Shown: positions 5,992-15,083 of the stretch, piece by piece
Numbering within the stretch: the stretch's first letter is position 1
Layout of the letters: every line of letters begins with the position of its first letter
NCBI GenBank assembly: GCA_951812525.1
Contig: OX638316.1
Coordinates: 3,652,506-3,716,505 of the forward strand
Origin: an uncultured Poribacteria bacterium
GTDB taxonomy: Bacteria > Poribacteria > WGA-4E > WGA-3G
DNA: 64,000 nt
Direction: 5' to 3'
Program-made: the position numbers and the translations under genes
Notes under the pieces: model-generated
What the model saw: the letters and a program-made list of their open reading frames with translations, nothing else
Told to the model about the DNA's origin: nothing
Databases searched by the model: none

Positions 5992-6738
5992 CTAATACGT
6001 CGCTCTTCCACCGCTCACATCGTAGCACTGTCCCGTCACAAAACTCGCCTCATCTGAAGCCAAGAAGTTCACGACAGCCGCAACTTCCTCTGGTTTCCCG
6101 ACGCGCCCCAATGGAATCTTACTCACCATATAGTCGATTGTCGATTGTGCCATGCCCTCCAGAATCGGCGTTTCAATAACCGCAGGGGACACCGCATTCA
6201 CACGGATGTTATAGTCCGTCACCTCTTTAGCGAGTGCCTTCGTGAGGGTAATAACACCCCCTTTGGACACCGAATACGGGATGAGCGTCGGATTGCCCTC
6301 TTTACCAGCAATTGAGGCGATATTCACAATCCTACCGTAATTCTGCGCAATCATCGGACTAATAACCGCTTTACAACACAGAAAAACGCCCGAGAGGTTT
6401 ACAGCTATCACGGCATCCCAATCTGCCTCTTCTAAGTCAGTTAGCGGAAGCGTTCGTCCCGCGATTCCGGCGTTGTTAACGAGGATATCAACGCGACCGA
6501 GCGTCGAGATCACGTTCTCAACAGCGGCATTAACATCCTTGGACTGTGTAACGTCGGCTTGAATGGGCAATGATCTACGCCCGATGCCTTCTATTTCCTG
6601 TGCCACAGATTTTGCGGCGTCTATGTTCAAATCCAGGATAGCAACATCTGCCCCGGCTTCCGCAAGCCTGATCGCAATGGCTTTTCCAATACCTTGTCCG
6701 GCACCTGTCACGATCGCAATTTTATTGTCTAAGTTCAT
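5992..6738 (-). CDS. SDR-family NAD(P)-dependent oxidoreductase (FabG-like)
   Basis: A 248-residue classical short-chain dehydrogenase. The Rossmann motif TGAGQGIG is at 11-18, NNAG at 88-91, and the catalytic Ser142, Tyr155 and Lys159 (Y-S-V-S-K) are present. The C-terminus has the usual ASFVTGQCYDVSGG segment. An acidic Asp at the end of beta-2 (ILDLN) suggests a preference for NAD over NADP. It is the last gene of a reverse operon and starts 3 bases after the stop of the AhpD-like gene. The substrate is unknown; FabG-type, gluconate-type and sugar-acid dehydrogenases cannot be separated by eye. Confidence 0.92.
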   Translation of the reverse strand: MNLDNKIAIVTGAGQGIGKAIAIRLAEAGADVAILDLNIDAAKSVAQEIEGIGRRSLPIQADVTQSKDVNAAVENVISTLGRVDILVNNAGIAGRTLPLTDLEEADWDAVIAVNLSGVFLCCKAVISPMIAQNYGRIVNIASIAGKEGNPTLIPYSVSKGGVITLTKALAKEVTDYNIRVNAVSPAVIETPILEGMAQSTIDYMVSKIPLGRVGKPEEVAAVVNFLASDEASFVTGQCYDVSGGRATY

Positions 6739-6741
6739 ATT

Positions 6742-7320
6742 TTAATTCTCACTTGCTAAATGCAAGCTTTCCCTCCTCTCTTCCAAAAACGCGTCTAATT
6801 CAATTCCGAATGCGTCGGCTATCCGATTGACATAACAGAAAAACCCAACGACCTCTACGATCACAAAAAGTGCTTCGTCAGTGAGTCCATAACTTCGGAG
6901 ATGTTCCAAATCTGCTGGTGTAACAGTAGCTGCCGACTTCGTTACCTTGACTGCGAATTCAAGCATGGCTTTCGTGGCTTCGTCAATATCAGCACTTCGG
7001 AAGTCCTTCGTAAACACTGCAATCTGTTCGTCTGTGAGTTGAACCCGCAACTCATCTGCGTGCGCAACTATTCAGTAATCGCATTCATTCACTTTCGAGA
7101 CAACGGTAGCGATCATCTCCCGTTGCATCCGACTCAGAGGGCAGTCCTCGTCGAACATGACCGCTAAGTAAAGTTCGACAAAAGCGCGCATACTCTTCGG
7201 ACGCACACTGAAAAGTTTGACGATATTGAAAATTTCACCTGCCCGCGCCTTGGCAGCATCGTATTCCTCTTTCACGATGCCGGTTGCGTCAGCCTCATCT
7301 ACAGTCTGTATCCATGCCAT
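6742..7320 (-). CDS. Probable selenoprotein: AhpD-like/carboxymuconolactone-decarboxylase family peroxidase-related protein (CxxU)
   Basis: Two open frames (7072-7320 and the frame ending at 6742) are the two halves of one 192-residue AhpD-like protein, in the same reading frame and separated only by TGA at 7074-7072. The family motif CxxCxxxH reads C80-D-Y-(TGA83)-I-V-A-H87, so the TGA falls exactly at the second redox cysteine. The half upstream matches the peroxidase-related subfamily N-terminus (MAWIQTVDEADATG, then LSRMQREMIATVVS); the half downstream continues without a gap to a normal C-terminus. A hairpin at SECIS distance follows the TGA (listed separately). Known AhpD enzymes use the CxxC pair for thiol-dependent peroxide reduction, and AhpD-like selenoproteins have been reported from marine metagenomes. 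The start ATG at 7320 has a GGAG site 7 bases upstream, inside the end of the preceding gene. A plain nonsense mutation is the main alternative. Confidence 0.8.
7035..7054 (-). promoter_or_regulatory. Candidate bacterial SECIS hairpin in the AhpD-like gene
   Basis: Directly downstream of the in-frame TGA (7074-7072, reverse strand) come 17 unpaired bases and then a perfect 7-bp stem: T-GAGTTG pairing with CAACTC-A, closing a 6-base loop CGGGTT. The loop begins 24 nt after the TGA and has G at its second position. Published bacterial SECIS rules ask for a loop about 16-37 nt after the UGA with a G among its first two bases, so both hold. The hairpin is inside coding sequence (codons for D-E-L-R-V-Q-L-T), as bacterial SECIS elements are. 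The structure was judged by eye; no energy was computed. Confidence 0.7.
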
Positions 7321-7322
7321 AT

Positions 7323-8552
7323 TTACGCTCCGATTACAACCCCGTATTCACCGACCACAGCACCTTTATGCCCCGTCTGGTAGTGCAAATGCCGTTCACC
7401 GACAATAGGTTGTGTGCTTTGCACCTCGACTGTGCCGCGCACTTTTCCCATCGCACCTTCATCCATATCTACACAGCAGAGTGGCTTAATTTGGCGATGC
7501 ACCTGCCGATGAATATCGCCCTGTTTATTACGGATAATAATGTTGACAAAGGCATCTGCCTCTCCAACGTTAAGAAATCTGAACCAGTCCCAAGCACCCG
7601 CTGCGACTTCTGGGAAAAAGAGCCGGATACCAACCTGCCCTCCCTCTACAGATGCGCCGGGCAGATCGATAATAGCAGTCCCACTTTGCATGTGGCGTTC
7701 GGCTACAACCGGCTGATTGCTGCTGACCTCTATAGAGGATTTCACTTTAATGTCATCTATATCCGGTGTCCAGCACTCAAAGGGTCTCAATGGACTGTGT
7801 CTTTTGGTCCATGTCGATTCGGCATTGTCATCTTTACGCGCAATCATGGTTACCTCTGCAGGCTCCCTTCCTACATTGACGATCACGACCCAATCTTCCC
7901 ATGCCGGTCCGACCTCCGGAAAAAAGAGGGTACGCGGAGCATCTGTGATCACTTGCCCAAATTGTCCAACACACGTCTTCCCGCCTTGATAGTGGAGATG
8001 GCGTTCACCGACAATGGGTTGTGAACTTTGCATCTCAACCGTGCCGCTGACATTCCCCATCACCTCTTCATTGAGATCCCAACAGCAGAGCGGATCAATG
8101 ACATGGTGACGTTGCCGCAGCACATCGCCGTTGCGGTTTCGAACGGTAATGTTAACGTGTGCATCCACTTCACCAACGTTTAGGACACGGAACCAATCGT
8201 GCGCACCTGAAACCAATTCTGGAAAGAAGAGGCGTTGTCCGACCGTCCCGTATTCTGGAGCTGCACCGACAAAATCGAGCACATTCGTGTCCTTGTGCAT
8301 GTGCCGTTCTGCCACAATGGGTTGGTCGGCACTGAACTGCATCGAGGAATTTTCTTTAATCTCCTCAACGTTTGGGGTCCAGCACTCGAAGGGATGTATC
8401 ATTTTCTCTTCTGACCAAGTGGGTTGTCCGTTTTCAGCATGTCGCGCGATCGCAGTCACACGCGTCGGTTCAGTCCCCACGTTGGTAACTTGGACCCAGT
8501 CTTGCCACTCTGGACCTACTTCTGGAAAATAGAGCGTTGTTGCACCTGCCAT
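7323..8552 (-). CDS. Four-repeat protein of unknown function with ERHxH motifs
   Basis: A 409-residue protein made of four tandem repeats of about 100 residues in an A-B-A-B order. Each repeat opens with L-[FY]-F-P-E-[VL] and an x-D-W strand, continues with N-V-G, has a Cys-rich turn (PFECW in A, PLCC in B), and closes with QP-[IV]-V-[AG]-ERH-[ML]. The QPIVAER segment recalls repeat domains of bacterial surface proteins annotated as DUF5719-like; this is a resemblance only. There is no signal peptide, so it may be cytoplasmic. The start is well placed behind GAGGGAGGAA. It is the first gene of the operon and ends 2 bases before the AhpD-like start, so a redox or metal-linked role is possible but unproven. 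Confidence 0.7.
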   Translation of the reverse strand: MAGATTLYFPEVGPEWQDWVQVTNVGTEPTRVTAIARHAENGQPTWSEEKMIHPFECWTPNVEEIKENSSMQFSADQPIVAERHMHKDTNVLDFVGAAPEYGTVGQRLFFPELVSGAHDWFRVLNVGEVDAHVNITVRNRNGDVLRQRHHVIDPLCCWDLNEEVMGNVSGTVEMQSSQPIVGERHLHYQGGKTCVGQFGQVITDAPRTLFFPEVGPAWEDWVVIVNVGREPAEVTMIARKDDNAESTWTKRHSPLRPFECWTPDIDDIKVKSSIEVSSNQPVVAERHMQSGTAIIDLPGASVEGGQVGIRLFFPEVAAGAWDWFRFLNVGEADAFVNIIIRNKQGDIHRQVHRQIKPLCCVDMDEGAMGKVRGTVEVQSTQPIVGERHLHYQTGHKGAVVGEYGVVIGA

Positions 8553-13556: not shown

Positions 13557-13632
13557 TGTCGTTCCTGCTCTCCATTCGTCTTAACGTTCGTCCGTTCCAC
13601 GAGATGATGAAACACTTTCGCGGCTGATTAAC

Positions 13633-13998
13633 GTGTTTAATGATGCAAATATGCGGGCAGAAGTTGAAATATTACCTGAGTTAGCACGAGTAGATATTCG
13701 ATCCTGCTTGAATCGAATCCGCACTGTAACAGAACGAATTGTTTTTAACTACATTAATAACAACAATATTGATTGTCGAGGAAAAACCCTTGATACCGCG
13801 ATACGGGCACTGAAAGATCACAGTTCTTTTTCTAATAGGATGATCGGTTATTTACACACTATCCGTGTAATCGGGAATCTTGGTTCACATGCAACAGATG
13901 ATCCGCTTACGGATGTGGATGTTCGCATTCTTTCTTATGCCTTGGCATCTGTTGTTGAAGAATTTATGGAACAGAATGCACTTTCAGGTTTAACATGA
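13633..13998 (+). CDS. DUF4145-like domain protein, probably N-terminally truncated
   Basis: The 121 residues from GTG 13633 match the DUF4145 pattern: an N-terminal helix with ARVDIRSCLNRIRTVTERIV, the segment LDTAIRALKDH, and the signature HTIRVIGNLGSHA in the middle, followed by a helix. In-frame codons upstream remain open back to a stop at 13582-13584 (RDDETLSRLINVF) without a clear ATG or ribosome site, suggesting that the beginning is missing. DUF4145 domains often form the C-terminal part of restriction- or defence-linked proteins, which would fit an accessory patch next to the toxin-antitoxin genes. The function is unknown. Confidence 0.55.
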   Translation: MFNDANMRAEVEILPELARVDIRSCLNRIRTVTERIVFNYINNNNIDCRGKTLDTAIRALKDHSSFSNRMIGYLHTIRVIGNLGSHATDDPLTDVDVRILSYALASVVEEFMEQNALSGLT

Positions 13999-14075
13999 AC
14001 GAGGAAGCTCTTTGTATCGGATAATGGCATTGTAAAACATACTTTTTGTAATTTTTCACAGAAAATATTCACCAA

Positions 14076-15083
14076 ATGTTAACAATAGGCAATCTCAACA
14101 TCCAAAATTTCCCACTGCTACTTGCACCGATGGAAGATGTCAGCGATCCGCCGTTTCGCGCAGTCTGCAAAGAAAGCGGTGCGGATCTCATGTACACCGA
14201 ATTCATCTCCTCCGAGGCACTCATCCGAGATGCTGCTCCCAGTGTTGCCAAGTTAGACATCTTTGAAGCCGAAAGACCGATCGGTATCCAAATTTTTGGA
14301 CACGATATTGAAGCCATGCGTGCTTCTGTCGAAATTACCGAACGCGTCCAACCGGACATTATTGACATCAACTACGGGTGTCCTGTCAAGAAAGTCACGT
14401 GTAAAGGGGCTGGTGCCGGTATCCTACAAGACATCCCTAAAATGGTGAAGATGACCGCCGAAATGGTGAAAGCCACGAAGCTTCCTGTTACCGTCAAAAC
14501 CCGTCTCGGTTGGGATGATAAAACGAAATACATCGTTGAAGTCGCTGAACGGCTACAGGATGTCGGTATTCAAGCCATCGCTATTCACGGCAGGACCCGT
14601 CGGCAGATGTATAAAGGTAGTGCCGACTGGACGCTCATCGGTAGAATTAAGGATAATCCTCGCATGGCGATCCCCGTTTTCGGCAACGGCGATGTCGATA
14701 GCCCACAGAAGGCAGCCCACATGCGCCAACAATACGGCGTTGACGGTATTATGATTGGACGCGCAGCCATCGGCTACCCGTGGATCTTCAGCGAAATAAA
14801 ACACTATTTCGCAACGGGTGAATTCCTCCCACCGCCTTCAATAGACGAACGGATTGCTGTCTTCAGAAAACATCTCGATTTCTCCATAGAGTGGAAAGGG
14901 TTGAAGCTCGGTCTCATTGAGATGCGTCGGCACTACAGCAATTATTTCAAGGGCATCCCGCACGTCAAACCTTTCCGCAATCGTCTCGTCACATCTGATA
15001 GTTACGACGATGTTTTAGCAATTGTAGAGGAACTTCGTACCCATGCCTTGACGGTAGTACCATCTCTTGTTAGAAACAACTAA
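14076..15083 (+). CDS. dusB: tRNA-dihydrouridine synthase (DusB-type)
   Basis: A 335-residue flavoenzyme that reduces uridine to dihydrouridine in tRNA. The FMN-binding start APMEDVSDPPFR (residues 17-28), the active-site loop NYGCPVKKV with catalytic Cys102, the KTRLGWD segment and the HGRTR motif near residue 167 are all present. The C-terminal helical tRNA-binding domain is intact (EMRRHYSNYFKG). The DusB assignment, not DusA or DusC, follows from these loops but was judged by eye. It starts at ATG 14076 with only a weak ribosome site. In several bacteria dusB leads the fis operon; no fis-like gene follows here. Confidence 0.92.
   Translation: MLTIGNLNIQNFPLLLAPMEDVSDPPFRAVCKESGADLMYTEFISSEALIRDAAPSVAKLDIFEAERPIGIQIFGHDIEAMRASVEITERVQPDIIDINYGCPVKKVTCKGAGAGILQDIPKMVKMTAEMVKATKLPVTVKTRLGWDDKTKYIVEVAERLQDVGIQAIAIHGRTRRQMYKGSADWTLIGRIKDNPRMAIPVFGNGDVDSPQKAAHMRQQYGVDGIMIGRAAIGYPWIFSEIKHYFATGEFLPPPSIDERIAVFRKHLDFSIEWKGLKLGLIEMRRHYSNYFKGIPHVKPFRNRLVTSDSYDDVLAIVEELRTHALTVVPSLVRNN

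Follow-up and report, generated by a model that had tools for sequence, protein, structure and literature searches.

An AhpD-like gene of Poribacteria with an in-frame UGA that is almost certainly decoded as selenocysteine

AhpD-like selenoproteins with a CxxU redox motif were described from the Sargasso Sea in 2005 (27 sequences; PMC1088965) and, as "AhpD-like 1", from the GOS data in 2008 (299 sequences; PMC2398784), which bears out the statement of a first-pass annotation of the present DNA that such proteins occur in marine metagenomes. The family also appears, as "AhpD-like protein, TIGR01926, CxxU", among the selenoproteins tabulated in a 2026 review (PMC13188914). PA0269 of P. aeruginosa is a weak peroxidase, the proton relay of which is formed by Glu36, Cys48, Tyr50, Cys51 and His55; in M. 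tuberculosis AhpD, the corresponding residues are Glu118, Cys130, His132, Cys133 and His137 (PMC3141380). SelA and SelB are frequent in sponge symbiont bins (PMC5649159), and none of the papers searched combines Poribacteria with selenoprotein. The CxxU AhpD-like family is already known, and there is good support for regarding the Poribacterial protein described here as an additional member.

The gene lies in a 64,000-nucleotide stretch of DNA from a sponge-associated Poribacterium (hereafter, the window), and the features of the locus are listed in Table 1. The minus-strand reading frame extends from the ATG at 7320 to the TAA at 6744-6742 and is split by an in-frame TGA at codon 83 (7074-7072), as had been noted earlier. 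Translation through this codon yields a protein featuring the motif C80-D-Y-U83-I-V-A-H87. Standard annotation would split or truncate a gene of this type, as the plain ORF list indeed does. The flanking genes are intact and closely packed, in agreement with the first description of the locus. Both neighbours are kept in 35 of 43 loci, as assessed by a motif check; in L051, L052 and L055-L060, they were not detected next to the gene. The protein encoded upstream contains repeats of the type FFPEVG..W.DW...NVG and is found directly upstream of the selenoprotein gene in most relatives. No DNA match was found in a plasmid collection.

Table 1. Positions of the features of the AhpD-like locus within the window.
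Feature	Position	Strand	Remarks
AhpD-like selenoprotein gene (TIGR01926, peroxidase-related), predicted	6742..7320	-	192 aa with Sec at 83
UGA codon, almost certainly decoded as Sec83, at the second CxxC position	7072..7074	-	TGA in homologues, Cys in PDB relatives
Bacterial SECIS-type hairpin, GAGTTG-CGGGTT-CAACTC	7036..7053	-	6-bp stem, 6-nt loop, covariation
Upstream 409-aa repeat protein, no Pfam match	7323..8552	-	2 nt before selenoprotein start
Downstream short-chain dehydrogenase (SDR; PF13561, 236 bits)	5992..6738	-	3 nt after selenoprotein stop

The codon at the Sec position is TGA in 50 and TGC or TGT in 5 of 55 distinct homologous stretches. TGA-bearing homologues reach down to about 33% identity, feature only one such TGA per gene, and include L092 and L095 from Planctomycetota. 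The Cys forms are L066, L126 and L127, which are Poribacterial (29-35% identity) and are taken as paralogues, and L093 and L094, which are from Nitrospinota. The TGA corresponds to the second Cys of the motif, as proposed, since Cys is found at this position both in these distant homologues and in the PDB relatives 2pfx, 3c1l and 2oyo. A survey of 85 genomes of the phylum revealed 49 near full-length matches with an in-frame TGA and one full-length match without a stop, a Cys paralogue in G030:C127. The named genomes carrying close homologues (74-94% identity) are all Candidatus Poribacteria. Many of these bins derive from marine sponges. The predicted selenoprotein trait is widespread in Poribacteria, and the recurrence of the TGA in dozens of separate assemblies makes a raw-read error very unlikely. 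Comparison of the window gene with eight homologues gave dN/dS values of 0.04-0.15 before and 0.08-0.25 after the TGA. The latter range argues that the downstream half is kept as protein-coding sequence, and the ratios indicate that purifying selection is acting on both halves of the gene.

The gene has been lost in some relatives. In L068, L069, L070 and L096, the flanking sequence is intact and only the gene ends are left, and the deletion end points differ. The scars are located at ~1006 in L068, ~1000 in L069, ~1010 (minus strand) in L070 and ~3040 in L096. L060 (G044:C1:3747719-3748219) is a degenerate copy with a broken end, in which a CAG codon (Gln) of the relatives is replaced by an additional in-frame TAG. 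This substitution alters a base of the SECIS stem; the partner base is changed too, and the stem is preserved. As four loci are deleted and one is degenerate, the gene is dispensable in some species. No Cys form was seen at the Sec position among the Poribacterial orthologs of the phylum, in which the gene appears to have been deleted instead. Loss of Sec decoding in the gene-less species was considered and rejected, because SelB is still encoded in genomes of the same genus that lack the gene or bear its scars (G002, G003, G005, G016, G017, G019, G022 and G025); three of the four scarred loci lie in G017, G003 and G005, all of which retain SelB.

Counted from the UGA, positions 22-27 of the SECIS-type hairpin pair with positions 34-39, and the loop, CG[G/T]GNN, has G as its second base and is separated from the UGA by 24 nt. 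Published criteria for bacterial SECIS elements are a loop of 3-9 nt with G in the first two positions, a stem of 4-16 bp, a distance of 16-37 nt from the UGA and an MFE <= -7.5 (PMC13188914). The window hairpin, with a 6-nt loop (CGGGTT), a 6-bp stem, a 24-nt distance and -9.3 kcal/mol when the hairpin is imposed, lies within these ranges. Left unconstrained, an isolated 48-nt stretch has another structure as its MFE fold (-11.2 vs -9.3 kcal/mol for the SECIS hairpin). It is covariation that carries the argument for the hairpin, since chance alone lets about 13% of synonymous shuffles of a single sequence fit a generic SECIS model. An Rfam search over the locus returned nothing relevant.

Among 31 distinct sequences, 100% of cells are paired, compared with 90.3 ± 1.2% in shuffles, and the proportion falls to 17-45% when the hairpin is slid by 1-3 columns. 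Changes on both sides of the stem involve 21 cells, compared with 4.5 ± 2.6 in shuffles, and RNAalifold recovers the same helix unaided. Pair counts and pair-type counts do not exceed those of shuffles in this set, as just two pairs vary in it. With the addition of further Poribacteria and of Planctomycetota, the set grows to 39 distinct sequences, all of which are fully paired across the six stem positions, and the loop is always CG[G/T]G. Compensatory changes occur in this larger set at three pairs, namely 24-37 (G-C, A-U, C-G, G-U and U-G), 25-36 (U-A, C-G and U-G) and 27-34 (G-C, A-U and C-G, the A-U pair coming from the degenerate copy L060). The check for a bacterial SECIS element suggested by the first-pass annotation is answered by this covarying hairpin. 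At the codon level, Glu90 GAG occurs with Leu95 CTC and GAA with Phe95 TTC; the combination GAG-TTC, which forms a G-U pair, exists, while GAA-CTC never does. As codons 90 and 95 covary, a silent change of the Glu codon is tracked by a Leu/Phe change. Codons TTG91, CGG92 and CAA94 are invariant in 29 of 29 genes despite the availability of synonyms, while most adjacent codons vary synonymously.

Hairpins of the GAGTTG/GACCTC type, in which 24 nt separate the UGA and the loop, are found in the branch of the window gene and in the two Planctomycetota. The more distant Poribacterial homologues L061-L065 carry a hairpin of the form ACGC[A/G]GA-GTT-[T/C]CTGCGT. The position of the SECIS differs between branches of one family, the spacing between UGA and loop being just 17 nt in L061-L065. 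We tentatively suggest that the same Sec codon may be served by two unrelated SECIS hairpins, either because the SECIS was relocated while Sec persisted, or because Cys changed to Sec twice at this site.

The source genome of the window consists of one contig of 5.06 Mb, with an estimated completeness of 96%. The Sec machinery, on which the first-pass annotation made its reading depend, is all encoded in this genome. Profile searches identified SelA at C1:879379-880476 (514.7 bits). The tRNA-Sec gene maps to C1:2709224-2709313 (78.1 bits vs a gathering score of 47), was called tRNA-SeC with anticodon tca by ARAGORN, and is directly adjoined by the gene for SelB (336 bits). SelD (358.5 bits) features a single in-frame TGA of its own in the context Cys-Ala-Gly-Sec. 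The selD gene (L020, G000:C1:3914052-3914975) is itself a selenoprotein gene with a SECIS-like hairpin, GCTCC-AGG-GGAGC, the loop of which lies 17 nt 3' of the TGA and has G in second position. With selD and the AhpD-like gene each carrying such a TGA, this organism has two or more genes for selenoproteins, which provide the Poribacterial Sec machinery with concrete clients. RF2 (prfB) is encoded as well (507 bits), and TGA ends 12 of the 56 long ORFs of the window in a mechanical count. These two observations indicate a standard code, as anticipated from the use of TGA as a normal stop by other genes. A scan of the window, judged by eye, revealed no further convincing candidate for a TGA-interrupted gene. 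In the region 13585-14082 (plus strand), a 121-aa ORF (13633-13998) ends in TGA and is followed by about 28 more open in-frame codons; this TGA resembles an ordinary stop.

The 192-aa protein belongs to TIGR01926, "peroxidase-related enzyme", as a full-length match with a score of 145.6 bits (cut-off 81.8) over residues 2-173, and also matches PF02627. The active-site residues E68, C80, Y82, C/U83 and H87 are invariant in 20 sequences, Cys forms included. The structure predicted for the protein (pLDDT 92) has 2prr as its best PDB match (TM 0.87). According to this model, the product would adopt an all-helical AhpD-like fold, in which Sec83 is placed near the conserved Cys80, Glu68, Tyr82 and His87. 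The ribosome would read UGA83 as Sec with the aid of the downstream SECIS hairpin, SelB and tRNA-Sec. Sec83 would then attack and reduce an electrophile, such as a peroxide, with Cys80 resolving the selenenyl-sulfide bond that results. By analogy, this assignment of an attacking Sec83 and a resolving Cys80 is the most likely mechanism, because the residue spacing matches the relay of PA0269 and M. tuberculosis AhpD; peroxidase activity is suggested on the same comparative grounds. Sec may, as the first-pass annotation proposed, enhance the reduction of peroxides.

A TGA within a gene may also be a real stop or a sequencing error, in which case the locus would be a pseudogene or encode an 82-aa truncated protein. 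Other genes of the window end normally in TGA and RF2 is encoded, as this explanation expects; however, 50 distinct homologues from separate assemblies share the TGA, selection is purifying 3' of it, and the hairpin covaries. Moreover, the genuine losses in the phylum look unlike the window gene, being internal deletions or involving an extra TAG. We consider a stop or pseudogene extremely improbable, and the conservation of the TGA in practice refutes a pseudogene and makes a sequencing error very unlikely. An in-frame TGA within a conserved gene is also the expected outcome of a recoded genome in which UGA is read as Trp or Gly, or of read-through by a near-cognate tRNA. Yet many genes end in TGA in this RF2-encoding genome, there is a single such TGA per gene, it aligns with Cys rather than with Trp or Gly in relatives, and both the Sec machinery and a SECIS are present. 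Reading of UGA83 by such means has a negligible probability, and a recoded genome was rejected on account of RF2 and the normal use of UGA as a stop. Judging from sequence comparison, the internal UGA of 6742-7320 is almost certainly decoded as selenocysteine, and we are highly confident that the gene encodes an AhpD-like selenoprotein of TIGR01926 in which Sec would be inserted at UGA83 through the SECIS, SelB and tRNA-Sec. The selenoprotein interpretation of the first-pass annotation is upheld by the combined finding of the Sec machinery, Cys homologues and a covarying SECIS hairpin.

The selenoprotein may have a task other than peroxide reduction, acting, for instance, as a thiol-disulfide adaptor or as a reductive dehalogenase comparable to the debrominase Bmp8, which shares the fold. 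Bmp8 (6ohi) matches the model with a TM of about 0.8 and the family profile at 1.4e-6. Of the five closest relatives of known structure, four are named in no more specific terms than, for example, 'peroxidase-related' or 'putative antioxidant defense' protein. Bmp8 is merely 18-19% identical, however, and the closest proteins by both sequence and fold are the peroxidase-related AhpD-like proteins 2prr, 2pfx, 3c1l and 6k40. The neighbouring genes offer no hint. We regard a task other than peroxide reduction as rather unlikely.

Compared with known systems, the predicted selenoprotein resembles the Cys forms 2prr, 2pfx, 3c1l, 2oyo and 6k40 in fold (TM 0.80-0.87), active site and sequence (about 30% identity), but these have Cys at the Sec position and no UGA. 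M. tuberculosis AhpD and PA0269 feature a Glu-Cys-(His/Tyr)-Cys-His proton relay with spacing identical to that of E68-C80-Y82-U83-H87. Both contain Cys, not Sec, and the similarity is limited to the two-helix core; the fold of M. tuberculosis AhpD resembles the predicted model only distantly. Among selenoprotein families, NF041238 (alkylhydroperoxidase-related (seleno)protein AhpD_rel_CFYUT; hypothetical protein 1, Sargasso Sea) has a related AhpD domain and a CxxU motif and gives 77.1 bits. The window protein is not a member of this family, as it scores far below the cut-off of 175 bits and is about half as long. With the published AhpD-like selenoprotein family (TIGR01926 / COG2128), it shares the NCBIfam family, the CxxU motif and a downstream SECIS-type hairpin, the likeness being drawn from these features. 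Whereas the published members are marine metagenome reads, the Poribacterial gene could be followed across a phylum, and a selenoprotein family known from metagenomes is now placed in a one-contig genome with full Sec machinery.
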